In this document: one piece after another, positions 16,801 through 53,102 of the stretch
How positions within the stretch are numbered: the stretch's first letter is position 1
Layout of the letters: each line of letters opens with the position of its first letter
Position numbers and translations under genes: made by a program
DNA from: Thermoplasmatales archaeon
GTDB taxonomy: Archaea; Thermoplasmatota; Thermoplasmata; Methanomassiliicoccales; Methanomethylophilaceae
NCBI GenBank assembly: GCA_012520845.1
Contig: JAAYNL010000015.1
Span: forward strand, 124,001 to 188,000
Direction: 5' to 3'
Length of the DNA: 64,000 bases
Notes under the pieces: generated by a model
What the model was told of the DNA's origin: nothing
Seen by the model: only the letters and a program-made list of their open reading frames with translations
Databases searched by the model: none

Positions 16801-16808
16801 TTATATAA
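16801..16808 (+). promoter_or_regulatory. TATA box of the six-gene surface/McrBC block
   Basis: CTTATATAAATA begins at 16800, followed by an AT-rich stretch. The predicted transcript start is near 16828-16830, about 22 bases before ATG 16852. Since spacers are short through to 42425, this may drive the whole block. Confidence 0.6.
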
Positions 16809-16851: not shown

Positions 16852-17391
16852 ATGGCCAGGGGCCTAAAGCTCAACAAATTCATCGGAAAATACGGATTGT
16901 TCCTTTCCGATGCATCAAACGAAGAGATCGTTTCAGTCTCGAAGGAACTGACGGCCGAGCTGTCGAATCAGGTCGAATCGGCCACCAAAGTCGGGCTGAC
17001 GATGCTCGCATCCACGGTGCTCTCGCTGATTTTCCTCGTGACCTTCGTCTCTTCCGCGCCGACGTCGCTGTCAGGCACGGAGAAATCGGTCGTGTTCCTG
17101 ACCAGGATACTTTCGATTTCCCTGCTGTGCTTTTCCGTCCTGATTTCCGGCCTCATCGTTTCACGGATGTCCGACGCATCGTCCATCTCCACCGTATTCT
17201 GGAGGAACATCCGCGAAACCGCCAACGACGAACGCGCACACGAGCATGCCAATGCGGTAAGGACCATAAACTCGCTCATAGGTTCTTCCAAAAACCTGAT
17301 CAAATTCGCGGTCATGACGATCTCCCTCGCGGGACTCGTCCTCGGATTCGGCTTTGTGTACGAAATGATGGTCATCGCAAACTATCTGTAA
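16852..17391 (+). CDS. Three-helix membrane protein, unknown function
   Basis: This 179-residue protein has three hydrophobic segments at about residues 48-70, 84-107 and 155-178, with soluble stretches between. The region between helices 2 and 3 is polar and charged (SSISTVFWRNIRETANDERA). I chose ATG 16852; an in-frame TTG precedes it directly. It ends seven bases before the next frame opens and heads a tightly packed plus-strand block. No family is recognised. A helper for export or display of the two large surface proteins downstream is only a guess from position. Confidence 0.75.
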   Translation: MARGLKLNKFIGKYGLFLSDASNEEIVSVSKELTAELSNQVESATKVGLTMLASTVLSLIFLVTFVSSAPTSLSGTEKSVVFLTRILSISLLCFSVLISGLIVSRMSDASSISTVFWRNIRETANDERAHEHANAVRTINSLIGSSKNLIKFAVMTISLAGLVLGFGFVYEMMVIANYL

Positions 17392-17406
17392 CGACGGGTG
17401 TTGAAA

Positions 17407-20337
17407 ATGGGAGAAAACGGTTCAACCGGCATATCCGCGTCGAAACGCGGGATACTGGCGGCGACGGTCATGGCGGCGTTGCTCGCGGTTACGGCATTCT
17501 CGATTCTCGGACACGCGGATACCGCGGACGCCGCTAACGAGCCTCCGGGAATAAGCGGCATCGCGGTTTCTTTCTTCGACCAGGATTCCGAGGACTACGG
17601 GGAACTCGCCTACGTCAGCGACCTGCTTCCCGAATCCGTGAGCGCGGCCGAATGGGTAAAGGACCCAGTCAGCGGTTTTTGGTACAACATCAACACACTC
17701 AGTTCCGACTTCGGGAAAATCCTTACGTGTGGAAAAATACCCACACTTTCCAACGATGAAATCAGAGGGGACGTCGTGTCCAAATATCCGATTTTCGGCG
17801 GCGATTTCGTCATAATGCAGGTCACGTACAACGTCGCTTACGACTGCAACGTTTCGGTCAAGGTGACGAAGGAGGGAATGCCCGATTTCACGGATTCCTA
17901 CGAAGCGTCCCTCTCCGTTTCCGGATGCCGTTCCGAAACGCCGTTGGTGCACGTGAAAATATACACCGTCGATACCGCGGCCGGGGACATGAAACCCGCC
18001 GAATCCAGAGGGACCTACGGCGTTTCGATGAAATACAACGGCATCGCCTGCGACGGCGTCAGCATCACTTACAAGGGCGCGGATTTCATTCTTTTGGGTC
18101 ATGTGACCGATGCCTCCGGAAACGGAATCCCCGGTGCCGACGTTTCCTACAGAATCGACGACGTTCAGTGTACCGCGGTTTCCGATGCGACGGGAACCTA
18201 CGCGATACCCGCGGGAATGGGTTCGGTCGTTACCGTCGACGGCATCGTTTCCGATAAACACACGTTCAATAATGGATTCCCGTATTCCTACGGGTCCGTC
18301 ACCGGCAATGTCGCGCCCGGCCCCTCTTTCGCCGCCGACGAATCGTCGGTTCAGATAACCGTCAGGGACCAAAGCGGAAGACCCGCCGACGGCGCGACGA
18401 TCAGTGCCGAATGGCACCACGTCAGCGGCGGCAGGATAGTAAGAAGTCCGACGGGAATCGCCCCTTCCTCCGAGTCAACCGGCTCGGACGGAAAAATATC
18501 GGTCATATACACGTCCGCCCCCGCCGGCGCCATGATGTACATCTGCGGAGTGAATCAGACGGACTCTTATTCGTTCGACACCAATTCCATACCGGACGAA
18601 TCCGCTTCGCTGCCCGCCCTTACGAAAGAAGGGAACGTATACATCGACCCGTCGGTGACCCCGGCCGCCGAACTGAAAGTGATGGAATATTCCGTTCTCG
18701 TGACCACCCGGGGCAACGTCGATTTGTCGTCCGAGGGGGGCGCGATCCTCCCGAATGTCTCGGTGACCGCGGAATGGTACTATCAGATGGACAACTTGGA
18801 CGGCACGTATCAGGTCCGTACCGCGGGCGAGGTCGAACCCGGTACGTTCAGCAACCTTGGCGACGGAGGCAAAGCATGGGCCATGACGTCGCATTCCGAC
18901 GGCGCGGGGAAAATCGTGATCGTTTACAAAAAACCCGCGTGGACCGTCGAAGGGGGCGAGACCGCCTTCCTTTACGTTTACTGCAACGGAATCCCTTCGA
19001 ACTCCTCTTCGGACAGATACCTCTTCGAAAAACCGGACCGTCTCTCCGACGGGGACAGCATACCCGACCAGGTTTCCACGTTCGGGGGCTGCAAGGCGTT
19101 GGAGCTGTCCTCGATCGGGCCTTTGGACGAAATCTCCGTGCATTCCGAGCAGGTGGCGTACCTGATTACCGGGACCATCACGGGCGACGTTCCGGACGAA
19201 GTCACGGTATTCTGTCTTTCCGCGACGACGGGGGACTTCAGGACCGTTCCCGCCGTCTTGGGAACGATCGTCTTCACGTTCCCGGTCATGGAGGGCCAGT
19301 CCAGCAAAATAGAGATAGATTCGGTCGCCGGGTACAGCTTTACCAACAACGGGATAACCCTCCCGTCGGCGACGGGGGATCAGGCATATTCGTCGACCGC
19401 CACCGAATTCGGCGTCGCATGCGAGAGGTCCGCTCCCGCGGTCGTGTGCACATACACGGTCACCGGGCTTTCGGAGGGGGACAAGGCGGTTTTCGAATAC
19501 AGTGTCGGGGGGGTCAGGCTCTCGACGCCCGCGATGTCCCCTTCGGATACCATCACGTTCTCCGTGCACGGACGCACTGGGAACGTCGTTTCCTCCATCG
19601 GGATCACCGGGGTCGGCGGCGTGTACGTTCCCGAGTTCACCGGCACCTCGGTCGAGGCCTCCAAGGACGCCGAGAGGAAACTCGTGGTTTACTACAGCGA
19701 GTCTTCCGGCCCTTCCATCGATAACGTCCGCGCGGGCCAGAAAATCGACGTTTACTGCAACGGGGCGAAGTCCGCCGGGGGGATTTCCGATTCGGGCGGA
19801 ATCATAACCGTGACCTACCCAGACGTCTTCGACGTCGTTTTCAAGATGGGGGAGTTCACGTTGGCTTCCGCGGAGATCGTTTCGGGGATCTACAACGGGT
19901 TCATCGGGGTCAACGTCTACGGGGCCGTCCCGCCCGAGGCGGCAAAAACGGTCGACCTGACGATCAGGTACGTGGCGTCCTCGAGCATGGAAAACCAGAG
20001 CGCCCCGACGGTCGTGGACATTCTCAACCCCGACCCCGCCTCGCCCCTGGTCAAAACCCTGGCCGTCGGGGACACCGAGACCTTCAGCGCGCCCGACGTC
20101 GATGGATTCAGATTCTCGGGATGGTACCTCGACGGAATCTGCGTATCCACGAAAAGGGATTGCAAACTGACGATAACGGAGAAGATGGTCGGGGCCACCC
20201 TCACCGCCTCGTACGGCGCGGTGACCCCCGAGCCCCCGCCGCAGGACATCACCACCGTCCTCTCGGTGGGACTGGTTTCCATAACCATCGCGCTGCTGTC
20301 GCTCGTTTACGTCATACTTCAGGTAAGGAGATATTGA
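17407..20337 (+). CDS. Large secreted, membrane-anchored adhesin-like protein
   Basis: The 976-residue protein begins with a signal sequence (KRGILAATVMAALLAVTAF, cut probably after DTADA). It ends with a transmembrane anchor (TTVLSVGLVSITIALLSLV) and a short basic tail. Between lie beta-sandwich modules: a carboxypeptidase-regulatory-like domain (GHVTDASGNGIPGADVSYR, about residue 225), Ig-like segments such as VQITVRDQSGRPADGATI, and a terminal repeat FRFSGWYLDGICVSTKRD of the Listeria/Bacteroides type. It is an extracellular stalk or adhesin. I chose ATG 17407 behind GGGTG; a GTG at 17398 is in frame. It lies in the block that includes mcrBC and the giant protein. Confidence 0.85.
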   Translation: MGENGSTGISASKRGILAATVMAALLAVTAFSILGHADTADAANEPPGISGIAVSFFDQDSEDYGELAYVSDLLPESVSAAEWVKDPVSGFWYNINTLSSDFGKILTCGKIPTLSNDEIRGDVVSKYPIFGGDFVIMQVTYNVAYDCNVSVKVTKEGMPDFTDSYEASLSVSGCRSETPLVHVKIYTVDTAAGDMKPAESRGTYGVSMKYNGIACDGVSITYKGADFILLGHVTDASGNGIPGADVSYRIDDVQCTAVSDATGTYAIPAGMGSVVTVDGIVSDKHTFNNGFPYSYGSVTGNVAPGPSFAADESSVQITVRDQSGRPADGATISAEWHHVSGGRIVRSPTGIAPSSESTGSDGKISVIYTSAPAGAMMYICGVNQTDSYSFDTNSIPDESASLPALTKEGNVYIDPSVTPAAELKVMEYSVLVTTRGNVDLSSEGGAILPNVSVTAEWYYQMDNLDGTYQVRTAGEVEPGTFSNLGDGGKAWAMTSHSDGAGKIVIVYKKPAWTVEGGETAFLYVYCNGIPSNSSSDRYLFEKPDRLSDGDSIPDQVSTFGGCKALELSSIGPLDEISVHSEQVAYLITGTITGDVPDEVTVFCLSATTGDFRTVPAVLGTIVFTFPVMEGQSSKIEIDSVAGYSFTNNGITLPSATGDQAYSSTATEFGVACERSAPAVVCTYTVTGLSEGDKAVFEYSVGGVRLSTPAMSPSDTITFSVHGRTGNVVSSIGITGVGGVYVPEFTGTSVEASKDAERKLVVYYSESSGPSIDNVRAGQKIDVYCNGAKSAGGISDSGGIITVTYPDVFDVVFKMGEFTLASAEIVSGIYNGFIGVNVYGAVPPEAAKTVDLTIRYVASSSMENQSAPTVVDILNPDPASPLVKTLAVGDTETFSAPDVDGFRFSGWYLDGICVSTKRDCKLTITEKMVGATLTASYGAVTPEPPPQDITTVLSVGLVSITIALLSLVYVILQVRRY

Positions 20338-20376
20338 ATCAAAAAAAGTAAAAGTCGAAAGGGAAGAGGAATAAAA

Positions 20377-21237
20377 ATGAGAATAATAGGATCGAGCAGA
20401 ATCGACGACTACAAAAAAGCGACCCTGGACGACAGCGTGCTCAAGGCGCTGGACGTCAAACCCGGGGACAGCGTCCTGTTTTACAAAAAACAGGGCGACA
20501 GCAACGTCTGCATATACAGGGCCGAGGGCGCGCGCGTCTCCGACGAATCGGACACCCCCAGAAGGAACCACGCCCGGGGGGCCGTGGGAAAACTCAGGAC
20601 GATGCTGCTGGTCAGCGTCGTCCTGATGCTCGGCGCCCTCGGCTTGATGGCGCTCAAATCCTCCGAGGTGGGGATGACGTTTTTCCTGGTCGCCGTGGCC
20701 GTCTGGGCGGTCGCGATGGGCGCGCTCCTCGGAGCCATACTGTACTCCAGGACCATAGACAGGCCCTACGACCCGGAGACCCTGGTCACCGTCGGCGGCC
20801 CCTTCTCCAAGAACAGGCTCGCCGGCCTTTCCAGGCTCACTTCCGACGGATACATCGTCACCGGCGAACTGTACATCAATTCCCTTTTCGGCGCCAATCC
20901 CGGAACCGTCGAGGTCGACATCCGGTTCGACGACGGCAGGTCCGTCAAAGCGGTGACCAACCGCCAGAAGGCGGTCCCTGGCTATTCCGTTTACAAACTC
21001 CGCTTCAAGGAAAGCGAGATCACGGACGGCAAGGTGTTCGTCACCACCACCTACGTCTACGACGGGAAAAGCATCGTCATCGGCTCCGAATACGACCTTG
21101 GGCTGGGTCCCGGCGGAAAGGAAATCGTCCTCACGGAAGGGCCCGTCACGGCCGGCCTGGAATTCGACGAGAACCTGAACAGCGTCGCGTTCGACGAATC
21201 CCTGTTCGACCCGGTGAAGGACACGGAGGCAATCTGA
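20377..21237 (+). CDS. AbrB-like domain fused to membrane helices and a beta domain
   Basis: Residues 1-50 resemble a SpoVT/AbrB swapped-hairpin fold (GSSRIDDYKKATLDDSVLKA, then LDVKPGDSVLFYKK). Two membrane helices follow at about 72-92 and 98-122. The remaining 160 residues are beta-rich (VDIRFDDGRSVKAVTNRQ, VTTTYVYDGKSIVIGSEYD). The AbrB fold usually binds DNA, and joining it to a membrane anchor is unusual. The gene is preceded by GGAAGAGGA and ends one base before mcrB, so it is likely coexpressed with the McrBC-like pair. Function unknown. Confidence 0.75.
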   Translation: MRIIGSSRIDDYKKATLDDSVLKALDVKPGDSVLFYKKQGDSNVCIYRAEGARVSDESDTPRRNHARGAVGKLRTMLLVSVVLMLGALGLMALKSSEVGMTFFLVAVAVWAVAMGALLGAILYSRTIDRPYDPETLVTVGGPFSKNRLAGLSRLTSDGYIVTGELYINSLFGANPGTVEVDIRFDDGRSVKAVTNRQKAVPGYSVYKLRFKESEITDGKVFVTTTYVYDGKSIVIGSEYDLGLGPGGKEIVLTEGPVTAGLEFDENLNSVAFDESLFDPVKDTEAI

Positions 21238-21238
21238 G

Positions 21239-22609
21239 GTGGCTTCCCTGAACATCTCCAACAACCTCCTGCTGTACGGGCCCCCCGGCACCGGCAAGAC
21301 CTACAACGTGGTCAATTACGCCGTCGCCATCGTGGAGAACCGTCCGCTGGAGGAGGTCATAGCCGAGGGCTATTCCCTGGCCCTCGAGAAGTATGACCGT
21401 TATACGAAGATGGGCAGGGTAGCCTTCATGACATTCCACCAGTCCCTGAGCTACGACGATTTCATAGAGGGCATAAGGCCCGTCGTCGACGACAGGGGAA
21501 ACCTGCTTTACGTCGCCACCCCCGGGGTGTTCTACAGTTTCTGCCAGAGCGCGGAAAACCCGAAACTCCTGCCGGGCGAAAACCCCCTTGCCGACCTGGA
21601 CGTAAAAAGCGACGCGGCCCTGTGGGCCGTGGCCCCCGGCGGATTCGGGGACACGCCCGAGAAGGAAAGGGCGTTCTCCGAATCCAACATCCCATTCGAA
21701 TGCCTCCCCGAAGGCGCCAAAATCGGGGACGTCCTGTTTTCCATGGCCGCCCCCGACGAAACCGACGGGGTCGGCATAATAACCGAGGACCCCGCCGAGA
21801 GAAAGGACGAAGCCCACGTTTCCGTCGACTGGGTCGGCGTCGGCGTGCGGTTCATCGCCGACAAAAAGCAGTTCGCCGAACTGCCCTGCAAAATCCGCGG
21901 CACGAAGGTGAAATCCTACATAGAGTCGCTCCCCGCGACCGACGCTTCCGACGCCGGCAACTGCGTGTTCATCATAGACGAGATCAACAGGGGAAACATC
22001 TCCCGCATCTTCGGCGAGCTGATCACCCTGTTGGAATCCTCGAGGAGAAAGGGCATGCCCGAATGCCTCGAAGCCTATCTGGCACAGCTGAAGGTCATGT
22101 TTTCGGTCCCCCAGAACGTATACCTGGTGGGGACCATGAACACCGCCGACAAATCCCTGACGGCCCTGGACACGGCGCTCAGGAGAAGGTTCGAATTCGT
22201 CGAGATGATGCCCGACCCAGATGTCCTAAAAGGGCGCAAGGTGGCCGACGTGGAACTCTCCAAGCTCCTTGCCGTCATGAACGAGCGCATCGAGGTCCTC
22301 TACGACAGGGAACACACGATAGGCCATGCGTATTTCATAGGCGTCAAAACGATAGACGACCTGGCGCAGTGCTTCATCAAAAAAGTGATCCCGCTGCTCC
22401 AGGAATACTTCTTCGACGATTACGAAAAGATCTGCTGGGTCCTGGGGCACGCCGACAACCCGAGGAAATGCGACTTCATCCGCGTGAAGAAAAGAAGCGA
22501 GTTCCAGATGAAGTTCAACCTTCCCGACATCTACGAAATCGAAACCAATTACCGGGTGTACGTGAACCCCGAGTCCTACATCCAAATATACAGGGGTTCG
22601 TATCTATGA
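21239..22609 (+). CDS. mcrB: McrB-like AAA+ NTPase
   Basis: McrB is the hexameric GTP-driven motor of McrBC modification-dependent restriction. This 456-residue form lacks an N-terminal DNA-recognition domain and starts almost at Walker A (LLYGPPGTGKT, residues about 11-21). Walker B is VFIIDEINRGNISRIFGE. GTMNTADKS is the McrB-type sensor and LDTALRRRFEF the arginine-finger region. An insertion of about 80 residues (about 100-190) lies between Walker A and B. The start is GTG 21239. The stop overlaps the mcrC start as ATGA. Without a recognition domain, its target is open. Confidence 0.88.
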   Translation: MASLNISNNLLLYGPPGTGKTYNVVNYAVAIVENRPLEEVIAEGYSLALEKYDRYTKMGRVAFMTFHQSLSYDDFIEGIRPVVDDRGNLLYVATPGVFYSFCQSAENPKLLPGENPLADLDVKSDAALWAVAPGGFGDTPEKERAFSESNIPFECLPEGAKIGDVLFSMAAPDETDGVGIITEDPAERKDEAHVSVDWVGVGVRFIADKKQFAELPCKIRGTKVKSYIESLPATDASDAGNCVFIIDEINRGNISRIFGELITLLESSRRKGMPECLEAYLAQLKVMFSVPQNVYLVGTMNTADKSLTALDTALRRRFEFVEMMPDPDVLKGRKVADVELSKLLAVMNERIEVLYDREHTIGHAYFIGVKTIDDLAQCFIKKVIPLLQEYFFDDYEKICWVLGHADNPRKCDFIRVKKRSEFQMKFNLPDIYEIETNYRVYVNPESYIQIYRGSYL

Positions 22610-23670
22610 AAAGGAACACGCAGCTCAAGGAAACCGATTCGGTCGTTCTCACGCCCGACAATTCCAAGCAGGCGGAGACGATGATGGGCCTCGTCGGCGA
22701 AGGGAGCGGGCTGAAACTGACCCGCACCCCCGCCGGGGACGCCTTCTCCGCCGAAGGCTGCATCGGACACTTCGTGTTCAGGGACGGATCCACCATGGAC
22801 GTGACTCCGCTGATACCCTCCGTGAAGACCGACGACGGTTCCTCCAGGATGCTCATGGAGATGCTTTACCCCATATTCGGGATGGACACCCACGGTAGGA
22901 GCGAGGAGAACCTCTTCGAGTTTTTCGTCAGGGTGTTCACCGACACGGTTTCGAGACTGGTCGCCAGGGGGATGAGGTCGAAATACCACCTGGTGTCGGG
23001 AAACGAGAAGGCGTTCAAGGGAAGGATCGTTTTCAACGAACACATAAGGCAGAATTACATCCACAAGGAGAGAATCTACGTGGAATACGAGAATTTCTCC
23101 CAGAACAGGCCGGAAAACAGGCTCATCAAAGCGACCCTGGAAGTCCTGCTGAGGAACACGGCCAACGACCGAAACATAAAGAACATCAAGGCCCTGCTGC
23201 TGGGCATGGAGGACATCCCGTCGTCCGTCAACGTGGACAGGGATTTCGAGATGTGCGTCATGGACAGGAACATGATCGATTACGTCTCGCCCATGCTCTG
23301 GTGCAACGTGTTCCTCAAGGGCATGGGCCTCGGGGGCGCGAGCGTCGGGGCCCTTTCCTACGCGCTGCTGGTATCCACCGACGAGGTGTTCGGCGCGTAC
23401 GTGGCAAGGATGTCCTCGTCGTCGAGGGCGGACGGCATGTATCAGATTAGATACGACGCCGAAGTATTGAATGAAGGGGGCGCCGGGGGCGTTTCCGTGA
23501 TAATTATTAAATTGAAGTGGAGCTTCTATGACCGGCGCCGGGACCAATCCGTCACCGACGCGGAGCTGCTCTACATGACCGCACCCGGCTACAGGGTCAT
23601 CCCCGACGCCGGCGGCGGGGACAGGCTGAGGGGGATGGCGGGCAGCTACCTGTCCGACGTTCTCGTCTAA
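22606..23670 (+). CDS. mcrC: McrC-like partner with degenerate nuclease motif
   Basis: McrC stimulates McrB and carries a PD-(D/E)xK nuclease. The 354-residue protein has clear McrC-family regions: AFKGRIVFNEHIRQN (136-150) and YENFSQNRPENRLIKATLEV (161-180). At the C-terminal nuclease site, Asp284 in IRYDAEVL matches the first acidic residue. The second motif, normally Asp-x-Lys after a hydrophobic strand, reads Lys302-Leu-Lys304 in VIIIKLKW. The catalytic acid therefore appears lost and cleavage is doubtful. It is coupled to mcrB and ends 11 bases before the giant surface protein gene. Confidence 0.85.
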   Translation: MKRNTQLKETDSVVLTPDNSKQAETMMGLVGEGSGLKLTRTPAGDAFSAEGCIGHFVFRDGSTMDVTPLIPSVKTDDGSSRMLMEMLYPIFGMDTHGRSEENLFEFFVRVFTDTVSRLVARGMRSKYHLVSGNEKAFKGRIVFNEHIRQNYIHKERIYVEYENFSQNRPENRLIKATLEVLLRNTANDRNIKNIKALLLGMEDIPSSVNVDRDFEMCVMDRNMIDYVSPMLWCNVFLKGMGLGGASVGALSYALLVSTDEVFGAYVARMSSSSRADGMYQIRYDAEVLNEGGAGGVSVIIIKLKWSFYDRRRDQSVTDAELLYMTAPGYRVIPDAGGGDRLRGMAGSYLSDVLV

Positions 23671-23681
23671 GGGGTGTAGGT

Positions 23682-35600: not shown

Positions 35601-38600
35601 TCCTTCGGTTCAGGAATCGAAACCATTGGCAACTACATGTTCTACGGATGCAAGGCCGTCACCGGCACCGTCGATCTCGTAGGGACGATAACCGCCGTCG
35701 GCGACCACGCCTTCGACGGCGCTTCCAACATATCCGCCATAAACATCGAATCGAATGATTTCAAAACCCCGGGAAAGTCCGCATTCAAGGACTGCTTCAG
35801 GCTTGCGGCGCTCAAGATGCCCCTGAAGGTCAACGCGGTGGGGAGCGATCCCGGAAACCACGCCTTCGAGGGCTGCACCTCCATCACCAGCATCGAGTTC
35901 ATCGGATACGGTGCGGGATTCGCATACGCCGATTCCGGCGCCAGGGATTACAAAAAGACCCCCTGGTACCTCAGCAGGGCCAATTCCATCACCGTCACGT
36001 TCGGGGACGGGATAACCGAAATAGGAAACAACACGTTCCGCGACTGCACCGGGATCGCCGGGGACGTCGACATCTCCTTGGCGAAGACGGTCGGGGAATA
36101 CGCGTTCAGCGGATGCAGCCGCATGACCGGCATCACGGGCAATTCCGTCACGACGCTCGGAACCCACGCCTTCGAAGGTTCCACGTACCTCACGGAGGCG
36201 GTCATGCCCGTGCTGACCTCCATACCCGACTACGCTTTCGCAGGATGTTCCTCGATGGCCGACGCGACGTTCACGGCATGCATTTCCCTCGGGGCGCACG
36301 CCTTCGAAAACAGCGGGATCAACAACATCAACAACGACGGCGCCGACCGCGTCGTGGACTTCAGCAAGGTAAACACCGTAGGGGATAACGCGTTTGCCAG
36401 ATCCGAGGTGGTTTCGATCATCTTGGGAACCTCCGGAAAACCGATCGTCTATTTCGGGGAGCGCGCCCTCTTTGAGTGCGACAGTCTGAAGGACGTCGTC
36501 ATCGCCGGTTCCCTTCCCAAGCTGCCCCGCAGCACATTCAGGGACGACAGTACGAACCCTTCCTTCGCATCCGGTCTGAACTCCGTAACGGCCAACGAAA
36601 CCCGTAATTTCGCGGCAAATCTGGCTGACAACTTCAGATCCCTGCAGAGGGTGGAGGTCCGGGGCGCTACCTCTTTCGATGCGGACAACAACGAAGGGGT
36701 ATTCAGGAACTGCGAGTCCCTGACCACGGTCATACTCTACAGCGGAGATACCGCGGTTTACCTCCCCAAGGGCGCCTTTAGGAACTGCGTCTCTCTGGTT
36801 TCCATAAATCTCGAAAGCGTCAATCTGTCCAAGGGATACGAGTTCTACGGTTGCAAGAGCCTCAACAACGTCGCACTCACCAAGATGATGGACATTCCCG
36901 AATATTCTTTCTACGGCTGTTCCGCCCTGGAATCGTTTTCCGCGCCCAAGGCGAGCAGCGTCGGCAAATACTCGTTCTCAAAATGCGGCTTCACCGCCAT
37001 AGACGGTGCCATGTTCGAAGAGACCGAGATGATCGGGGAAGGGGCGTTCGCGGAATGCGCCTCCCTTATTTCGGTAAACATGCCGGCGGTAACTTCCGCG
37101 GGCCGGGACGCGTTCCGCGGATGCAGCGTCATGGAGAACGCAACCTTCGCGATACTCGAGGAAATCAGCTTGGGGATGTTCAGGGAGTGCGGCGCGCTCA
37201 AAAACATATCCGCGGACAGCGTCACGAAAATCAGAGAATCGGCATTCTACGGATGCAGGGCACTCGAATCCGTCGTTATGAACTCCGTGACCGAAATCGG
37301 GGACGTCAGCGCGTCCACGGGCATAACGCTCGGCGATTACGAAAACAAGGCCGTGTTCTATAACTGTGTGTCTCTCGGCTCCGTCACGATGCCGGCCGTC
37401 AGGTCCGTCGGGGCGCTGGCGTTCTACGGCTGCTCCACTCTGGAATCGTTCAACGCCGACGGTTCCATGGACCTTTCCGATGCGGAGGTCATCCGTTATG
37501 GGGCCTTTGCCGGAACCGGATTCAGAGAAGTTTCCGTCGGTAAGACCGGCGGAATACGCGAAATAGGGGACTACGCGTTCTACGGATGCGCAAGACTGAG
37601 GGATTTCTCCTCGGTTTCGCTCGTGACCCTGCCGGAACATCTGTTCAACAACACCGATATTTCGCTTCCGTCGGCTTCGCCGATGCTCGACAAAGTGTCG
37701 GTGCCGGCGGTCGTCAGCTTCAACGCCAACCTCCACGGATGCAAATCCCTGACCAAGGTCTCCGCGCCCAACGCGACGTCCTTCTGCGATGCCGCTTTCC
37801 GCGGGTGCACCCAGCTGAAAACCGTCGAACTTATGAACAATCCGGCACGCGGTCCCGCCGTGGTTCTTTCGAAGGAAATGTTTTACGAATGCGAAAACCT
37901 GGTTTCCGTGACTTTCACAAACGTTTCGTTCTACGGAGGACTCACTCAGTCGGAAAGGGTCGACACCTTCAAGGGATGCAAATCGCTGGTTTACGCCACC
38001 CTTCCGGAAGCCGCGAAGATACCCGTGGGCGCATTCTCCGGGTGCATACTCCTCTCGTCCGTCAACATGCCGAAGGCGACCGAGATCTGTGCCAACGCGT
38101 TCGAGGGATGCGTTTCGCTGGTTTCGGCGGAAATGCCCGTCGCGTCCAAGATCGGATACCGCGCGTTCGCGGGCTGCTCTTCCCTCGCTTCCGTGAACAA
38201 CGCGACGGGAAGGGCCCCCTTCTTCAACGTGGTGGAATTCGGGGAAGAAGCGTTCAAGGGCTGCGCGTTTACCGGACTGGTTCTCGGGCCGTCGACGACG
38301 AAAATCGGCGTCGGGGCATTCATTGACAACCCCGCTTCCGAAATCGTGATCCCGAACGTCCCGGGATTCCTGACCATAGACGAACGCGCATTCAAGGGCT
38401 GTCCCGCCGAGAGCATACACATATCCTCTTCGGTAAGGGAAATCCGTTCGAATGCCTTCGACTGTGCCGGGACGAACGTCACGACGGCGAAGGTATGGTT
38501 CAACGGAACCGTCACCGACGGCATGTTGCAACGGGACGCTTTCGTAGGAAACCAAGGGATGGCGCTGACCGTGAACGTGAATTCCTTCAGCGGCGCCGTT

Positions 38601-41600
38601 GCGGAAAACTTCGTCACCTACGAATTTGTTACCGGCGGCGTCAACGTGACGGTCAACGAATGCCCGTCCGCCACCATCCAGTTCGGCACCGACGAGGCCG
38701 GGGTGATTTCACCGAGCAACGGCAATGCTATATACGGCGGCAAAATCGTTCTTCCGAGCCTTAAGCTCGGCGATGTACGCCGTTGCTGCGGATTCGCCAC
38801 CGTCGACAGCAACAACGTCAATCTGGCACTCTTCGCTTCCGAAGCGGATTACGCCGCGGGAAAGATCGCCAAGTCGGGGGATGCCGTGCCCATGTACCCC
38901 ATCGGGACTTCCGAGGACGCCATCACGCTGTTCGGCACCACGGACACATCCGGTTTCCTAAATGAGATGGAAATCGTCACCCAAAGCTACGGCATGGAGG
39001 TCAACCTCGGGAGGCAGACGGTGCACTACGGTTCCGAAATCATAATGCCGAGATTCGTGAGCTCGCTGATGAAGGCCAGGGAGCTCACCCTTGTGAAAGG
39101 CGATGGCGCAACCTATCCCCTCGACCCCGAAACGACCACCTCGGTTTACGCGGGATATTACTTCGTGGAACTGCGCATAGTTTCCGAGGACGCCAAAATC
39201 GACGTCATCTTCGTAAGCAAAGGCGTGACCGAAACGGTCTCGGTCAACGTTCAGGCCCCGTTCTCGGTTCCGGCGGAACTGAAGTACATGGAAACGGAGG
39301 ATCCCGGATTCAGGTTCATGGGCTGGTATTCCGCCGACGGGGGGAAGGGCATCAGGGCCGGTTCAGAAACCAGGTTCTCCCCCGGCCAGGCATGGTATGC
39401 CTACTTCACCCCGCTGGGATACACGATAACCATAGTGAGCGACAGCCCCGCCTACTCCCATTCCGTGGAAGTCACGGGCCCGTTCACGCTCCATACGGAC
39501 GACGACAAATCGCTGTACTACACCGATTTGACGACCGGCACTGCCCAGCTTCCCCTATTCAGCCATCTGAGCATCCCGGGATGGTCCGTGTCCTATTACG
39601 GCGACAAGGGCAATCACGGAAGGGAAATCACGGGGGACTACGGTACCGACCCCAAGCTTACGGGGGACATGATCGTCGACCTGTACATGACCATGAACGT
39701 TTACGACGTTTCGCTGAAGTTCAGGTACAACCACAACGACATCCCGTCCGACGAAGAGTTCTTCATCACCGGGTTGGGCGTGGGGGTTTCCAACGTCTAC
39801 CATACCGGCGACAGGATAGAGGGCATCCCCTACTCCGAGATAGAGAACGGGCTCGCCCTGCCGGTACCCAAGAACCATCAGTACAGTTTCAGGGAACTGT
39901 ATTCCGTTGACGAAAAGGGCGGCAGGAGCAGGATAAACTACGAGAACGAAAGATACGCCCTGTTCCTGGCCAATTTCGGCGGCGGAACCTCGGTCACCCT
40001 CGAATTCGCCATGGACATGGGTCGCTACATCATCGAGTTCGACCTCGACGACGACGGCAGGAACGGGGAACCGACCGTGTTCACATATCAGGATTCGCTT
40101 GCCATAGGCGAGTTCTTCCTCATGCCGTCGGTTCAGCGCAACTACTTCAAGACGGGTTATACGTTCAAGGGACTCAAGGTCGTGGGCGACGACACGCTGT
40201 ATGGGGAAAGGGAACCCGTCGAGCTTACGCAGGAAATGATTGACCTGTCTAAGAGCTGTGTGGTATCCGTCAAAGCGGACTGGGAGAAAATCTCTTACAC
40301 GATAGAGTTCGACCTGCGGCCCCATACGGGCACCGTGGACGCGCTCGAGGGGGTGAAAGTCGACGACGATGTGACCTTCCCGTCTGTCTCCGGATACACA
40401 GGATACAGGGTCTCCGGCTGGAGCTGGAGCAAAGGTGGCGACGTCTCGGAACCCTTCGCCGACGGACCGAAACTCACGAAGGAAATCATCGACAGGTATG
40501 CCGAAGGGCGGACCATCTCCCTGAAGGCGGAGTGGGCCGCCAAGACGTACACGCTGAAGGTGGATCCCGCGACTTCCTACAAGTTCGAGGTCAAGACCGT
40601 CGTATATGGGGAGTCCTTCACCCTCTGGACCAACATCTACACCCGCGCGTTCGTCAAGTTCGCCGGTTGGACCGTCGGCGACGAAGTCTATGGGAATTCC
40701 GCCCTCGCGACACTCAACGAGACCATGGCGGCCATTGGCGACGAAAGCGAAGACGTGATCATATTCGGGATGAAATGGATCAGTTCCGAATACCAGATCA
40801 GATACGATTTGGACGGGGGGACGGGAACCATGCCTTACGACGATAAGCCTTACATAATCGACGAGACGGATTTGGTGCTTGCCGCCGACGACGGTTCCTT
40901 CTACAGGGACGGATACACGTTCATCGGGTGGAAGTATTCGAGACTGTCCGACATCCAGTATGTCAATCTGTCCGGTAAGTTCGAATCCGCCCTCGCCCAG
41001 AACGCCGATTCGGACAACGTCGTTACCCTGTACGCCATGTGGTCCCAGAAGTCGTACAAAATAGAGTACAACTTCAACGGGGGGAGGGCGGGGGCGGGGG
41101 CGCCCGTGAACGTCCTTTACGGCGACGAGGTCGTCATCAGCAACCCGTACAGGAGCGGATACGATTTCGCCGGCTGGACCGCAAGCAACCTCACCAACGG
41201 CGCCATGTACGGCTCCTCCTCGGGATTCAGGTTCTGGGACGGTCTGAAACAGGTGACTTCCAAATCCTTCAGGGACCTCTCCAACGTCGACGAAAGCACG
41301 GTGACATTCACCGCCCACTGGAGGGAATCCACCTACCTGATGACCTACGACCTCAACGGGGGGTCGGGAATCATCATCGGCGGGATGACCCAGATCAGGC
41401 TCGGGGACGGCATCAGCCTCCCGACGCTCAGGGACGCGAGCAAAATCGGGCACACCTTCCGCGGATGGGGGGTGGACCCCGTCAACGCCATCGGCAACGG
41501 AACCGTGTTCACCGCCGACATGGTGAAACCCGAGGAGTCCGCCCTCGCGCTTTATGCCGTATGGGCCCCCGTGGAATACACCGTGCAGTACAGGTTTGCG

Positions 41601-42425
41601 GATACGTACAGATATTCCTCGATCACGTCGGAATACGGCGAATCCGTCAACGTCCCAATCCTCGAAAGATCCGGGTTCGACTTCGACGGCTGGGACATCG
41701 TCGGCGCCGATTCCACCGCGTACTACGGTATGAACGGCAAGGACTGGTACAAGCTGGGCGACGAAAAGGTCAGCGGGACGTACTTCAAGAACCTCACCCC
41801 GACCGGGGGCGGCGTCATCACCCTGAACGCCACCTGGGTGGCGAAGAACTACAGGATCGAGTACAGACCCAACGGCGGTACCGGGGCCGTTCCCATAGAC
41901 GATTTGGTCTACCACGTGGGCGACTCCGTCGAAATGAAGGACTTCAGTTCGCTGTCCGGCACCAACGGAAGCAAATCCGTGGTCGGATGGTCCCTGGAGC
42001 CCGACGGCGCGGCGATGACCGTCAGGGATTTCACCGAGGGCCTCGCCGAAAAGGCGGATGCCACCAACGCCATCAACCTGTACGCCGTGTGGGTCGACGG
42101 CATGTGCCTGATTTCCATCAACCTCGACGGATGCACGCCCAGCAAGATCCCGTCCGGGTGGTCCCTGAGCGCGAACGGGACCTACGACAAGCTGGTGGAA
42201 TACGGGACCGAGACAAAGACCGCGATGGCCGATTGGGACGGGGTCACGCTCCACAAGGACGGATACACCTTCGATTCCTGGGAATACGGCAGCTCGACCG
42301 TTACCTCGACGGTCGAGGTGTCGCCCAACTTCGAGAAGGTGGACTCCAACATCATGTACGTTTTCGCGGGAGTGATCTCCGCGTTCGTCGTGGGGGCGGT
42401 CGTCTACTCCAGGCTCGGGAGGTGA
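23682..42425 (+). CDS. Giant BspA-like leucine-rich-repeat surface protein (6,247 residues)
   Basis: A single frame of 18.7 kb. It begins with a signal peptide (KKMYLLAALAVLFAAIVVG, cut near EEVSA). From about residue 180 to 4970 it consists of LRR_5/BspA repeats of about 22-23 residues with the pattern AFxGCTSLxxVxL. Then come about 1,100 residues of Listeria/Bacteroides (Flg_new, InlB B-type) beta-grasp repeats such as GYDFAGWTAS and YRIEYRPNGGTG. A membrane anchor follows at about 6220-6243 (YVFAGVISAFVVGAVVYS) with an RLGR tail. BspA proteins in gut microbes bind host matrix, other microbes or glycans. Longer duplications are listed separately. No internal stop or frameshift is seen. Confidence 0.95.
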   Translation: MRKLSKKMYLLAALAVLFAAIVVGLSDIGSEEVSADTASGDVKKDSTTIGTWTYDNASCVLTLSANNANPGMPTELAGFSNQADVLSVILTGSYYTYGFKTDITSFFGSAYASLGENIVYTGDLLPSSSNTGTWTYGIESKALTITKNTASYSQTLPSYSSNNAPWYGYYFRTVCTHGEIDGYLNGGQYLFNGFSSMKTLTSSSMESIQYNLFLGSAIEVLSMSALIETQYYYSYSNYGLYPIKETLKTLYAPNLRTIASYSFHSFSKLETVNVDDDNVTVGSYAFYNCTKLNAINTGGIISIGEQAFRSCGSLTGTFAFPALTSVGTHSFYGCTGLAKVTDLGDIATIPAYLFCGCTSLTAVTIPNTAVKIGGYAFQNSKINAISLPDSVTEILANGFRGCGYLATVDLGNSLVSIGDNAFMECPNIAGTVVFPDTLTSVGVEAFSGSYNISGLTFTSGDVTTAIGQKAFYGCNNIVSVSFGTKIREIGASAFQGCTKLAGTVTFSPTITSVGNSAFYGCTLLVSVEFMGGDQLTSIGNHAFYNCTSLKTLVLGDKITSIGNYAFSGCQTLAGTVIFSPVIKTVGERAFDGCLSLGGAEFTGMYGGPSDVTALGNHAFYGCTSMVSLTLGDRIESIGTSAFEGCTGITGGITFPAALTTLGNRAFYGCTSLEDIDFNPNCKLKTISPEAFRNCKLNGGTIAFHNDLETIDYYAFYNCTGLEGISFSVSSSKLRTIQYGAFYKTEALGDVTFPDSLETFVCSGSTGPFRESGITGITFGTNSDSTKIAGIPAYAFYNCRNIGGTVAFPDNVTLIDNYAFSGCTSLEGISFNDTSKLATIGYGAFYGCTSMDCDLVLPDSLVNLNSSGSSYYGSSSAGNTFGNTKLSSVTFGSGLINIGHSAFHGLTSLTGPVELPASLEVVDAYAFYNCTNISELKVNSSNATLQTIGKGAFYNCASMEGDVKLPSSVTSIGQGYYYGNDSPFYNTKITKISSTGSLTVDRCAFRNCTALTNVSFPYATFVGSYAFQGCANLVNVNVSTIEKVESYTFNGCTSLKTVYIDSATVIDTNAFSGCTFLETAHTYSVETINSNAFYNCQKLEDIHLAQVGGTVGQNAFYNCSSLTDLDMPFATSIGASAFQNCSLLTGATLSSATSIGASAFRDCSSLMSVTASSVTSIGDYAFQDCSSLTGVTASSATSVGNYAFRRCVDLTSIEMDGLQTTGMYAFDGCTSLVTVEMPALTTLGSYAFSGCTSLQTARMVVLVTLNPSAFSGCYSLATVEMSSLTTMGSSAFSGCTSLNTIGFPALTTMGSSAFSGCTNLKTVSLPKVTTIGANGFQNCSNLRTVETSADLVYVGGSAFSGCPMLQGGLVLDSVTEIGASAFSGCASYSGDVNGIVDLISIKTLGDSAFYDTAVKTFSMGAALETLGSRALYNDGLETIIVDPDNLYFTVWENVLYNSQKTTALLCPPSTVHTSLALPDSVNRIESYSFYNTSNLTQVMLPNKVALTIGDYSFQNSGLTSLVLPTNITKIGTYAFANCTNLNSVVVEFIGAKTFINQSNPTYYSSPNSYQFDGCASLKSITYPNTVEIQYVFINCPAIEEIHITGNGASGLPSNYFSSAYQTMPWYNTNYNTASRIAIHFEGNVTEIDDYMFAAHPNYSYYNRSIEKVYITDSVTKIGNYAFRNCARLTEIVFPNNLTQMDANALQNCNALKKVSLPITFDWSNGSGSTSYPSVSQLTDIVFKPGKNGVGFDYTLEKTNKLFWKSVSSYKISFESGVTHIGDYSYLKPSGFITIPSTVESIGEFAFYRATIQDLTIEDGLKTLEDNAFSECTNLTFIRMPNTFQNYNGSPFNGCTSVSTVYLPITLEYTISEDKSLFFGCSSLYMYHFTPGINGVGVTYTADKAVKTPWYDSCEKYNKSINVTFSEDVVSVGNYMFYGCAVGSGGLEGNLSFPDSLKSIGESSFQNCTLVTGVTFGNTLDTVGKNAFAGCTGIKALTFASTDTTFGDGAFKNCSGMKTLTVPVSFNTVGNVSAPIFEGCTGLETVNLVGSLASHNYSDTDYQHTPWHYSKANTISLNVGGTVSSIGNNMFRDCTGLTGELTITPVLTNVGTAAFAGCSGITKLTVQSASANMGPHAFRDCIGIATLSVPAAFNSVKYADAPIFENCGGITKLFLTGSGSSIGYSDSDCRKTPWYYSRGNSITLSLAPTITTVGGNVFRDSGIAGVVTIGNNISSVENNAFGGSAKITGLVITSSATSLGRNAFGGCTGLASLTLPVETNTVKYADAPIFGGCFGINELHFTGVLGFSYTESGVGDYRQTPWYLSRYNTITADFATGVREIGNNMFRGCTGLDGTVALPSSVNTVGDYAFNGCTGLDRFEGVEVSVLKAEVFRGSSSLSYVSLPLVTTIPEYTFEGCTGLSEATVGSCKTIGGHAFENSGINTINSAVSQTANLAGVTSVGDYAFAKSGLVDVVLGTSGTVLTMGDYVFLECQSLTTVDIRGELIRLPANTFRSAATPSSFASPLRTLRANGVKTFAANLKGFASLETVEIATATSFEDSTNKEVFRGCVSLKSITLFSNPDSPVRITLPESAFRGCVSLLTVDATNLVLSRGHEFRGCISLNDVTVAYSTQIPDYAFSECAALTNFEAPCATAIGNRSFEGCGFIALTSGVLPNATSAGEYAFAGCPNLASVDLPLTAVGKYAFSGCNSLGTVTLSKIQTISEGLFHGCASLNGVSAEKARTVGVLAFYGNVSLMTVNLQKAETVGDVSEGAVELADYDEKSVFGGCDSLGSVSMPSLKKVGALAFYGCAGLSRFNSDTEMDLSRVSFIGYGAFYGTAAVKVTVGYQGTELKMGDFAFAESPSLTGFTVLGGLAAFGKDTLDNCPLLERLKLPISVRWVSDYKPTGIKGIEFTRGTVPAGYDYTGDDFEKLLWNGSPGYSVTFEQGISKIGDEMRLAATGDVFIPRTVISVGKYAFWESPMTSLVIENGTQALVLNDRAFGGCESLTEIAIPNNLAGFNGLPFCGCTALSKATLPITFDFSGKFGNCTALSTFVFTVGSNGIGHKYTSESSTSTPWYAASGYGRQVSVSFAPGVKSIGDYMFCGCTAVTGPVELVESVTAVGAHAFEGAAGMTELHIRAAAFGTLGESAFKGCTGLKTLTIPLTVDAVVSNTNPAFGDCTSVTSISFIGNGAGFAYADPGARDYKKTPWYLSRANSITVAFGDGITEIGNNTFRDCTGLNGTVILPDATTAVGDRAFNGCTGLSGFNGPKVTSLGIEVFRGSTALSSVSLPLVTTIPESTFEGCAGLSEAEIASCTAIGKYAFRNSGVSKINSLAAETANLTGVSVIGEYAFAESGLVKVTAGTAGTALVLEDYAFLECASLKEMNIDGIVAKLPYNTFRSADTDATFVSQLRTLRADNVTIFAANLENFASLKTVSIVKATSFDENNNKGVFKGCVSLESIALFSSGSSTQITLPESAFEGCVSLTAVDTTNLALSKGSEFRGCVKLDNVIVYNSVRIPNDSFRGCAGLKTFTTASATSVGNRSFEGCGFTALTTEVLPNVISVGEYAFAGCPNLTSVNLPLTAVGKYAFSGCATLGLASLPEIQTISEGLFHGCTALNGVSAEKATTVEVLAFSGNAALASINLQSVRAVGDVSGNPVNADNYLSKPVFGGCTSLGSVTMPALRQVGALAFYGCTGLSKFNSGTEMDLSGITFIGYGAFYNTAAAKVTVGKPLATLTMKDYAFAQSQSLTGFTVSGGLESFEKNTFDNCPLLENLKIPISAKWISDYKPVGVKSIQFTRGTVSAGFDYVEADFGNLLWSESVGYSVTFEQGITKIGNRMYLAAAGAVTVPSSVISIGEYAFCGSPMTSVVMHNGLQNLGDGAFCGCTSLTEVTVPGTLVNFQGAPFSNCTALSKVTLPITTDFSKNMFEGCGALNEFAFTTGNNGYGKGWNYDEVSSKKTPWYLASSAGISVSFGSGIETIGNYMFYGCKAVTGTVDLVGTITAVGDHAFDGASNISAINIESNDFKTPGKSAFKDCFRLAALKMPLKVNAVGSDPGNHAFEGCTSITSIEFIGYGAGFAYADSGARDYKKTPWYLSRANSITVTFGDGITEIGNNTFRDCTGIAGDVDISLAKTVGEYAFSGCSRMTGITGNSVTTLGTHAFEGSTYLTEAVMPVLTSIPDYAFAGCSSMADATFTACISLGAHAFENSGINNINNDGADRVVDFSKVNTVGDNAFARSEVVSIILGTSGKPIVYFGERALFECDSLKDVVIAGSLPKLPRSTFRDDSTNPSFASGLNSVTANETRNFAANLADNFRSLQRVEVRGATSFDADNNEGVFRNCESLTTVILYSGDTAVYLPKGAFRNCVSLVSINLESVNLSKGYEFYGCKSLNNVALTKMMDIPEYSFYGCSALESFSAPKASSVGKYSFSKCGFTAIDGAMFEETEMIGEGAFAECASLISVNMPAVTSAGRDAFRGCSVMENATFAILEEISLGMFRECGALKNISADSVTKIRESAFYGCRALESVVMNSVTEIGDVSASTGITLGDYENKAVFYNCVSLGSVTMPAVRSVGALAFYGCSTLESFNADGSMDLSDAEVIRYGAFAGTGFREVSVGKTGGIREIGDYAFYGCARLRDFSSVSLVTLPEHLFNNTDISLPSASPMLDKVSVPAVVSFNANLHGCKSLTKVSAPNATSFCDAAFRGCTQLKTVELMNNPARGPAVVLSKEMFYECENLVSVTFTNVSFYGGLTQSERVDTFKGCKSLVYATLPEAAKIPVGAFSGCILLSSVNMPKATEICANAFEGCVSLVSAEMPVASKIGYRAFAGCSSLASVNNATGRAPFFNVVEFGEEAFKGCAFTGLVLGPSTTKIGVGAFIDNPASEIVIPNVPGFLTIDERAFKGCPAESIHISSSVREIRSNAFDCAGTNVTTAKVWFNGTVTDGMLQRDAFVGNQGMALTVNVNSFSGAVAENFVTYEFVTGGVNVTVNECPSATIQFGTDEAGVISPSNGNAIYGGKIVLPSLKLGDVRRCCGFATVDSNNVNLALFASEADYAAGKIAKSGDAVPMYPIGTSEDAITLFGTTDTSGFLNEMEIVTQSYGMEVNLGRQTVHYGSEIIMPRFVSSLMKARELTLVKGDGATYPLDPETTTSVYAGYYFVELRIVSEDAKIDVIFVSKGVTETVSVNVQAPFSVPAELKYMETEDPGFRFMGWYSADGGKGIRAGSETRFSPGQAWYAYFTPLGYTITIVSDSPAYSHSVEVTGPFTLHTDDDKSLYYTDLTTGTAQLPLFSHLSIPGWSVSYYGDKGNHGREITGDYGTDPKLTGDMIVDLYMTMNVYDVSLKFRYNHNDIPSDEEFFITGLGVGVSNVYHTGDRIEGIPYSEIENGLALPVPKNHQYSFRELYSVDEKGGRSRINYENERYALFLANFGGGTSVTLEFAMDMGRYIIEFDLDDDGRNGEPTVFTYQDSLAIGEFFLMPSVQRNYFKTGYTFKGLKVVGDDTLYGEREPVELTQEMIDLSKSCVVSVKADWEKISYTIEFDLRPHTGTVDALEGVKVDDDVTFPSVSGYTGYRVSGWSWSKGGDVSEPFADGPKLTKEIIDRYAEGRTISLKAEWAAKTYTLKVDPATSYKFEVKTVVYGESFTLWTNIYTRAFVKFAGWTVGDEVYGNSALATLNETMAAIGDESEDVIIFGMKWISSEYQIRYDLDGGTGTMPYDDKPYIIDETDLVLAADDGSFYRDGYTFIGWKYSRLSDIQYVNLSGKFESALAQNADSDNVVTLYAMWSQKSYKIEYNFNGGRAGAGAPVNVLYGDEVVISNPYRSGYDFAGWTASNLTNGAMYGSSSGFRFWDGLKQVTSKSFRDLSNVDESTVTFTAHWRESTYLMTYDLNGGSGIIIGGMTQIRLGDGISLPTLRDASKIGHTFRGWGVDPVNAIGNGTVFTADMVKPEESALALYAVWAPVEYTVQYRFADTYRYSSITSEYGESVNVPILERSGFDFDGWDIVGADSTAYYGMNGKDWYKLGDEKVSGTYFKNLTPTGGGVITLNATWVAKNYRIEYRPNGGTGAVPIDDLVYHVGDSVEMKDFSSLSGTNGSKSVVGWSLEPDGAAMTVRDFTEGLAEKADATNAINLYAVWVDGMCLISINLDGCTPSKIPSGWSLSANGTYDKLVEYGTETKTAMADWDGVTLHKDGYTFDSWEYGSSTVTSTVEVSPNFEKVDSNIMYVFAGVISAFVVGAVVYSRLGR
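27036..27299 (+). repeat. Four tandem 66-bp LRR units
   Basis: The sequence (T)CCTCGCT recurs at 27036, 27102, 27168 and 27234, exactly 66 bases apart. Each unit encodes a 22-residue LRR such as CSSLTGVTASSATSVGNYAF. The copies share long identical runs, for example CACCTCGATAGGCGCCAGC in the first two. This is an in-frame coding tandem repeat and probably recent. Confidence 0.85.
27539..27637 (+). repeat. Further 66-bp tandem LRR copies
   Basis: GGGCAGCTCCGCGTTCAG occurs at 27539 and, with one base changed within the run, at 27605, 66 bases on. The shared CTTTGACCACGATGGG-type context belongs to the same expanding tract that starts near 27400. Confidence 0.7.
30591..33251 (+). repeat. Super-repeat unit A (2,661 bp) of the giant gene
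   Basis: About 887 residues, beginning at the SYTES...TPWYLSRYN region. They align block for block with the next unit: CTGLSEATVGSCKTIG against CAGLSEAEIASCTAIG, VFRGSSSLSYVSLPLVTTIP against VFRGSTALSSVSLPLVTTIP, and so on. The spacing between matching blocks is 2,661 bases. Confidence 0.8.
33252..35912 (+). repeat. Super-repeat unit B (2,661 bp) of the giant gene
   Basis: Second copy of the 887-residue unit. Its first 137 bases (33252-33388) match 35913-36049 with only two mismatches. The remainder matches unit A more loosely, with one-codon indels, as at the TPWY near 32898 and 35562. Confidence 0.85.
35913..38050 (+). repeat. Super-repeat unit C (third, partial and diverged)
   Basis: It opens with the nearly identical 137-base block and follows the same order of LRR blocks: FENSGINNINN, SLKDVVIAGSLPKLPRSTF, GATSFDADNNEGVF and VGALAFYGCSTLESFN. 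It then diverges toward the end of the LRR region. The right boundary is approximate. Confidence 0.65.
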
Positions 42426-42431: not shown

Positions 42432-42453
42432 GATCCCGGCGCGGGCCGGGATC
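42432..42453 (+). terminator. Perfect GC hairpin after the giant gene
   Basis: GATCCCGGC, a four-base loop GCGG, and GCCGGGATC form a perfect 9-bp stem seven bases after the stop codon. It is likely a transcript end or 3-prime stabiliser for the six-gene block. No poly-T run follows directly; the next bases are AAACCCCTTAATCCC. Confidence 0.6.
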
Positions 42454-42959
42454 AAACCCCTTAATCCCTTTTATACGACGTGCCGAATGAAAACAGCTTT
42501 CTTGCGGAACCGAGTCCGCGGTCCCCCCATTCCCGGATCCCGGTTGCCATCTCGGTCCCGGCATCGTCAGCACGGGTTTTCCGAACATGGGTATGCGGGG
42601 CGTGCCGTGTTGACGAAGGCATCGGCATGGCAATGGATTGGCGGCAACAGGCTTTCAAAAATTACCCAGAGGGTTTCGGACGGTCCCATTTTACAAAGCA
42701 TCTTATATCATCCATACAAATTGTTTTCCAATCCCGATAAGTCCCGTGATACCGGTCACGAATCAGCGTGGCCTAAGTGGTTCACGGGCGACGGATACCT
42801 TTTTTTCGATTATATTGGAACATCCTATCTCTCACGGTTCATACATCATCTGACGGCATTTGCAACGTAATCCGCGATTCTGACGCATTTCGAGGAAACC
42901 TTCTTCACGCACTATGCCAAAAGTGTTAATTCCCTGATGCGATAATCAGTGTGATAACG
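42454..42959. other. Long intergenic region without a supported gene
   Basis: About 500 bases. Small open frames exist on both strands (for example 42487-42870 plus), but they overlap one another and lack family resemblance, so I do not call them. The second half is clearly AT-richer than its surroundings. It may be a remnant of a decayed insertion at the edge of the accessory block. The promoter of the TPR gene must lie in the last 60 bases. Confidence 0.5.
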
Positions 42960-51162: not shown

Positions 51163-51440
51163 AGAGGAGCGACGTCCTCATCAGGCCCTACGTCACGGAG
51201 AAATCCGTGAACCACACCTCCGGGACCCCCACCCAGGGTTTCTCGGACGGCAACAGGATCGAGTTCATCGTCCACAGGGACGCGGACAAGGCGCTCATAA
51301 AGGACGTCTTCGAGGAGCGCTTCGAGGTCAAGGTCGAGAGGGTGTGGACCAGGATCGAGAAGGACGGCAAGCACGCGATCATCAAACTCTCCGACGGCTA
51401 CTCCGCAGAGGATGTCGGCATGAGGGTCGGGGTTTTCTGA
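51159..51440 (+). CDS. rpl23: Ribosomal protein uL23
   Basis: This 93-residue tunnel-exit protein is the docking site for SRP and NAC. It has the family opening VLIRPYVTEKSVN and the segment FIVHRDADKALIKDVFEERF. A roughly 10-residue insertion (SGTPTQGFSDGNR) sits after the first strand. The start overlaps the uL4 stop as ATGA. Confidence 0.95.
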   Translation: MKRSDVLIRPYVTEKSVNHTSGTPTQGFSDGNRIEFIVHRDADKALIKDVFEERFEVKVERVWTRIEKDGKHAIIKLSDGYSAEDVGMRVGVF

Positions 51441-51451
51441 GGTGAGCTGAA

Positions 51452-52159: not shown

Positions 52160-52165
52160 AGGTAA

Positions 52166-52642: not shown

Positions 52643-52652
52643 GGTGTTTGGT

Positions 52653-53102
52653 ATGGCAGGATACACAGTTAACGCGGACCCGGACGTGACCGCCAAGGCG
52701 CTCGGAAGGGAGATGCAGATATCGCCCAAACACTCCAGGGAGATCTGCACCATGATACGCGGCATGAAGGTGAACGCGGCCATCGAGACCCTCGAGGCCG
52801 TCATCGACCTGAGGAAGCCCGTGCCCATGAGGAGGTTCAAGAAGAGGGTTTCCCACAAACCCGGCGTGGGTCCCGGCAGGTACCCCAGGAAGGCCGCGGA
52901 GGCCATACTCGGCGTGATCAACAGCGCCGTGTCCAACGCGGAGTACAAGGGCCTGGACGCGGAGAACATGGTGATTTCCACGATTTCCGCCTCCAGGGGC
53001 CGCACGATTCCCGGGCACATGCCCAGGGCGCACGGCAGGGCCACCGCCTGGAACCAGGAGACCGTCAACCTCGAGGTAATATTGGAGGAGGTGGAGGAAT
53101 AA
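52653..53102 (+). CDS. rpl22: Ribosomal protein uL22
   Basis: This 149-residue tunnel-lining protein begins AGYTVNADPDVTAKALG and has ISPKHSREICTMIRGMKV, GPGRYPRKAAEAILGVI and the loop MPRAHGRATAWNQETVNLEV. I chose ATG 52653 behind GAGGTG; GTG 52644 is in frame. Its TAA stop overlaps the uS3 ATG by one base. Confidence 0.96.
   Translation: MAGYTVNADPDVTAKALGREMQISPKHSREICTMIRGMKVNAAIETLEAVIDLRKPVPMRRFKKRVSHKPGVGPGRYPRKAAEAILGVINSAVSNAEYKGLDAENMVISTISASRGRTIPGHMPRAHGRATAWNQETVNLEVILEEVEE

Follow-up and report, generated by a model that had tools for sequence, protein, structure and literature searches.

The locus

The stretch of DNA analysed here, 64,000 nucleotides long and referred to as the window, belongs to the genome of a Methanomethylophilaceae archaeon (genome G000, contig C7). 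Six plus-strand open reading frames, all of them intact, were found from position 16852 to position 42425, encoding a small membrane protein (p1), an adhesin, a membrane protein with an AbrB-like segment (AbrB-TM), McrB, McrC, and a giant LRR protein (Table 1). The gaps between these consecutive genes measure 15, 39, 1, -4, and 11 nt. A TATA-like box matching the archaeal pattern in all eight positions (CTTATATA) precedes p1, and it is the only perfect one, as the starts of the other five genes score 5 or 6 of 8. Downstream of the giant gene, a perfect GC-rich hairpin with a weak T-run was read directly. The initial annotation of this DNA had described these six genes at the same coordinates, with a single good TATA box, spacers of at most about 70 bases and a terminal hairpin, and all of these features were recovered.

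The block is flanked by the housekeeping genes aspS, gatB, gatA, and folE2 and by a dehydrogenase gene, and the G+C content of its genes (0.53-0.61) is below that of the flanking housekeeping genes (0.63-0.65). Elsewhere in the window, the AAA_14/DUF4143 ATPase gene has a distant relative (26% identity) upstream of the cluster of another genome (G092), and the 816-aa open reading frame sits in a stretch of strong AT skew located at 49-61 kb.

Table 1. Coordinates of the six-gene cluster, its signals, and two other genes in the window.
Feature	Position	Strand	Description
AAA_14/DUF4143 ATPase gene	8593-9798	-	
TATA-like box	16801-16808	+	8/8 match, archaeal; 52 nt 5' of p1
p1	16852-17391	+	179 aa, three TM segments; family-restricted
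adhesin	17407-20337	+	976 aa; N-terminal signal segment, C-terminal TM, short RRY tail
AbrB-TM	20377-21237	+	N-terminal AbrB/MazE-like segment (weak), two TM helices, C-terminal beta domain
mcrB	21239-22609	+	AAA+ GTPase; intact Walker A, Walker B, NTAD (NxxD), and RRR; no N-terminal domain
mcrB, hypervariable insert	21563-21946	+	residues 109-236 (~125 residues); predicted alpha/beta fold
mcrC	22606-23670	+	DUF2357/McrBC family (PF10117, E 3e-41); PDB McrC matches
giant	23682-42425	+	6,247-aa BspA-type LRR_5 protein; signal segment, C-terminal TM
hairpin	about 42436-42457	+	perfect, 9 bp, GC-rich, weak T-run; 3' of giant
816-aa open reading frame	51398-53848	-	no Pfam match at E<=1e-5

Membrane and surface proteins

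The three-helix topology originally proposed for p1 was borne out, with three TM segments, and the adhesin and the giant protein each have a hydrophobic signal segment at the N-terminus plus a C-terminal TM anchor. The conserved segments of p1, FLSDASNEEIVSVSKEL and WRNIRETANDE, are predicted to be cytoplasmic, and positive-inside reasoning places the conserved parts of both p1 and AbrB-TM probably on this side of the membrane. One of the five p1 proteins compared weakly matches PycTM (E 0.001), while the match is absent from the other four. Family and domain searches revealed no cyclase family among the cluster proteins, so that the pairing typical of Pycsar is missing.

The adhesin holds Big_1 and CarboxypepD_reg-like repeats, both scoring slightly below the Pfam cut-off. 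The giant protein combines LRR_5 repeats, a signal segment, and a membrane anchor, as expected of a BspA-type LRR surface protein, and carries List_Bact repeats close to its C-terminus. The predicted cytoplasmic tails of these two surface proteins are only about 5-7 residues long.

The third gene had been described as an AbrB-membrane fusion. Its membrane part stands, as two TM segments are predicted, but the AbrB label has weak matches only (one of nine members, E 0.01), and no AbrB structure match was found. The AlphaFold model of this protein is of low confidence (pLDDT 60), and the Foldseek list obtained with it is not taken as evidence of fold. The protein ends in an acidic tail (FDESLFDP). 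The idea that AbrB-TM derives from a phage or another virus found no support.

The McrB motor and its insert

McrBC is a DNA-cutting defence enzyme. The McrB protein of the cluster begins almost at Walker A, and neither McrB nor McrC holds a TM segment. The Walker A, Walker B, NTAD, and RRR motifs are invariant or nearly so across the 37 rows of the alignment. The AlphaFold model of McrB (pLDDT 84) has the McrB of Thermococcus gammatolerans (6ut5, E 2e-24) as its best fold match, and the next matches after McrB structures are mainly to NorQ-NorD, a MoxR remodelling pair. The bacterial relatives are ordinary mcrB-mcrC pairs, most of them with a longer McrB N-terminus and with a McrC of about 380-520 aa.

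Most McrB copies carry an insert between helix 2 and Walker B, which is missing from the copy of G021. This insert, mostly modelled at a pLDDT of 86-92, shows only 14-30% identity between relatives, versus 69-80% for the McrB core, and no recognisable family was found for it in Pfam or PDB profile searches. The same searches gave no support to an EVE/PUA-like fold, which had been suspected from a GDV...VGVV pattern. The idea that the insert diverges in step with the adhesin was also abandoned, since pairwise distances correlate for all genes and five genomes do not suffice to tell such an effect apart from phylogeny. The initial annotation had stated that McrB lacks a recognition domain and that the McrBC pair lacks targeting features. 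Even though the absence of an N-terminal domain holds, the first statement is not safe given the fast-evolving insert, which weakens the second one as well.

A McrC with a disrupted nuclease motif

The McrC protein retains the DUF2357 activator region, which is the GTPase-activating part. An alignment was made of the eight cluster copies, 58 bacterial relatives, and a canonical archaeal copy (G071). The PD-(D/E)xK motif is disrupted in all eight cluster proteins, in differing ways, while the 58 bacterial proteins and the canonical archaeal one all retain the PD and DxK residues. The cluster proteins form one clade in the McrC tree. The reading of this gene as McrC-like with a damaged nuclease motif is upheld, and, as the disruption affects every copy, the loss is conserved and not an accident of a single genome. 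Family searches recognised no other nuclease domain in the cluster proteins, including p1, the adhesin, AbrB-TM, and the giant protein. Judging from the disrupted motif and from the lack of another recognisable nuclease in the cluster, this is not a type IV restriction system of the ordinary kind.

Conservation across genomes

A sample of 102 Methanomethylophilaceae genomes contains McrB-like matches in 11 of them, nine being of the cluster type; MAG gaps affect several of the genomes compared. The full order p1-adhesin-AbrB-TM-mcrB-mcrC-giant is found in five genomes from three genera (G000, G013, G021, G091, and G092). In G019, a contig end cuts the locus after p1-adhesin-AbrB. G012 carries, on one strand of one contig, p1, a second AbrB-TM, mcrC, giant, adhesin, AbrB-TM, and mcrB. 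In G073, abrB-mcrB-mcrC leads into a BspA-like protein, and on another contig the end of a giant gene is directly followed by p1. In G011 the locus is partial and lacks mcrC and p1, and G051 has the abrB-mcrB-mcrC trio without adjacent surface genes, with p1 elsewhere in the genome.

The presence of any one of the six genes goes almost perfectly with that of the others (pairwise p values from 6e-7 to 4e-12 over the 102 genomes, with shared ancestry ignored). The last 807 aa of the giant protein find matches (E<1e-20) only in carriers of cluster genes, the match being weak in G051. In a phylum-wide sample, neither p1 nor AbrB-TM was found outside the family, except for a 40-residue match in G330. 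The flanking genes are mostly not common to the carrier genomes. The initial annotation had proposed searching relatives for the adhesin, AbrB-membrane, and giant genes beside the mcrB-mcrC pair, and this check was passed clearly. According to these data, the cluster is suggested to be an operon-like, jointly inherited six-gene system derived from McrBC.

G013 and G091, which the search tool assigns to different genera, match each other more closely than any other genome in p1, the adhesin, AbrB-TM, and McrC, indicating that the unit moves as one, and the McrC tree joins them with a support of 100/99. This pattern fits a transfer of the whole six-gene unit between genera.

Several copies show irregularities. 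The giant gene of G013 (L091/L092) is interrupted by a transposase-like open reading frame or IS element on the opposite strand (about 19555-20556 of the joined stretch), after which it resumes as a C-terminal part of 723 aa; just downstream lies a signal-peptidase-like open reading frame (L092, about 2974-3498), seen beside this copy only. In G012, mcrB (C49, 47126-48458) holds a frameshift/TAA and the giant gene (L134) several frame breaks, attributable to decay or to sequencing errors. The second AbrB-TM of this genome (C49, 67853-68662), located between p1 and mcrC, is divergent and matches the family profile with an E of 2e-24. In G073 (L100, 2663-4348), no stop separates the mcrC frame from that of a secreted BspA-like LRR protein, and McrC and giant may thus be fused in frame there. 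The frameshifts in G012 and the IS element in G013 show that the locus also decays.

Comparison with known systems

The cluster shares with the type IV McrBC systems of Escherichia coli and T. gammatolerans (PDB 6ut5 and 6hz4) the AAA+ GTPase of McrB with its NxxD motif and arginine fingers, and the DUF2357 partner McrC. In contrast to them, its McrB lacks the N-terminal DNA-binding domain, the nuclease motif is disrupted, and four membrane or surface proteins are encoded alongside. As regards a modified-base binding domain fused to McrB, most copies have an insert of unrecognised fold.

CoCoNuTs resemble the cluster in that their McrC nuclease may be inactivated and in that accessory genes belong to the operon. 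However, their GTPases hold NxD, while the McrB described here holds NTAD (NxxD), and they have HEPN or other nuclease partners, none of which was found among the cluster proteins; moreover, CoCoNuTs are nearly absent from archaea (PMC11090510). The CoCoPALM systems named in the same work are tied to envelope or pilus-assembly functions and have a membrane segment, and in this they are similar to the cluster. They belong to the NxD clade, with an FtsB-like fusion and coiled coils, whereas the cluster shows NxxD, an McrB without TM segments, separate membrane proteins, and giant adhesins. Their neighbours include the signal peptidase family (PMC11090510), a gene of this kind being seen only beside the G013 copy.

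MoxR AAA+/VWA systems, such as NorQ-NorD and RavA-ViaA, have a related AAA+ fold, NorQ-NorD leading the fold matches of McrB after McrB itself. In these systems a hexamer remodels membrane targets with a dedicated partner, and by analogy the same action is proposed for the cluster McrB. Contrary to them, the cluster has a McrC-like partner and a GTPase-type signature motif, and no VWA domain was found among its proteins in family searches. PcdA of Staphylococcus aureus belongs to the McrB family but has left defence for a cellular function, and it has lost the NTPase motifs and McrC (PMC10602043). The cluster keeps both, and its likely targets would be surface proteins.

Proposed mechanism and alternatives

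The reading favoured here, with a confidence just short of even, is that the cluster encodes a GTP-driven, membrane-docked machine which remodels its own surface proteins in a manner similar to MoxR-VWA systems. As in the McrBC enzymes already known, McrB would form a hexamer capped by McrC, and this cap would start the hydrolysis of GTP. The assembly would attach to the membrane from the inside, through the portions of AbrB-TM and p1 that face the cytoplasm, its partner specificity being set by the hypervariable insert. With MoxR ATPases and their VWA partners as the model, GTP hydrolysis would then remodel the membrane platform, so that the two surface proteins are installed, clustered, held, or released. 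The adhesin and the giant protein have tails too short to be threaded, and the machine would therefore have to act through p1 or AbrB-TM, whose conserved parts probably face the cytoplasm. This machine is consistent with the full order in five genomes and with G012 and G073, where the parts are rearranged yet linked. It also agrees with the near-perfect co-occurrence, the cluster-specific C-terminal region of the giant protein, the mostly unshared flanks, and the apparent G013-G091 transfer. The McrC motif lost in every copy, the conserved McrB core, and the lack of another nuclease point in the same direction, as do the modelled resemblance to NorQ-NorD and PcdA as an analogous precedent for co-option of the McrB family outside defence. 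Against it stand the short tails just mentioned, the G051 core trio without adjoining surface genes, and the fast-evolving insert, which would be equally expected of a defence specificity module.

The main rival, considered unlikely, is a membrane-sited device for defence or contact sensing, in which a virus or foreign cell would be detected by the surface proteins or by the McrB insert, the McrBC GTPase would relay the signal, and p1 would disrupt the membrane as the effector replacing the lost nuclease. Descent from a restriction family, a patchy distribution, and movement between genera would all suit such a device, and so would the contrast in conservation between insert and core, as inserts in GTPase domains are taken to be specificity domains by the authors who described CoCoNuTs (PMC11090510). 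However, the p1-PycTM match that would speak for an effector is marginal and confined to a single protein, neither a cyclase nor a nuclease partner was found in the cluster, and the loci of the window and of G011 are surrounded by housekeeping and not by defence genes. To our knowledge, no defence system requires two giant adhesins among its components. A nucleic-acid-binding McrBC that restricts DNA or RNA by recruiting a nuclease encoded elsewhere appears far-fetched. Type II and some type III CoCoNuTs do retain inactivated McrC nuclease domains that probably bind nucleic acids, but where this nuclease is dead or missing another one is always encoded close by (PMC11090510), and none was found in the cluster.

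AbrB-TM could instead be a DNA-binding regulator tethered to the membrane, which McrBC would release or alter and in this way switch the surface operon. The AbrB/MazE-like N-terminus adjoining TM helices and the single TATA box ahead of the block suit such a switch, which is nevertheless quite unlikely given the very weak AbrB match, the missing structural match, and the poor confidence of the model. It is very unlikely, too, that the McrBC-like genes are passengers riding with a mobile adhesin locus to which they have no working link. Although the locus is patchy, has a lower G+C content than its flanks, and decays in some genomes, gene order and spacing are kept despite large divergence, the parts are still linked in the rearranged G012 and G073, and the McrB core is strongly conserved. 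Regarding the proposed reuse of McrBC for surface proteins, the recurrence of the genes and the conserved loss of the nuclease argue for a McrBC-derived machine tied to such proteins, while between assembly, export, switching, and membrane-sited defence, sequence alone does not decide.

Significance

No description of this six-gene arrangement was found in the literature, and the paper on the ISO4-H5 genome makes no mention of McrB or restriction (PMC5011839). It may be, though the chance falls somewhat below even, that a McrBC-derived GTPase has given up cutting DNA and become a dedicated envelope machine of a new class, moving horizontally and building or controlling giant adhesins in archaea via membrane adaptors. 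The dead-nuclease clade and the co-occurrence make this idea directly testable. The comparisons suggest that, in a gut methanogen and some related archaea, a defence enzyme has been rebuilt for work at the cell surface. A conserved archaeal unit in which the McrBC motor is kept, the nuclease is lost, and adhesins travel along would exemplify how envelope biology can arise from defence, and would provide a concrete handle on how gut methanogens deal with very large surface proteins.
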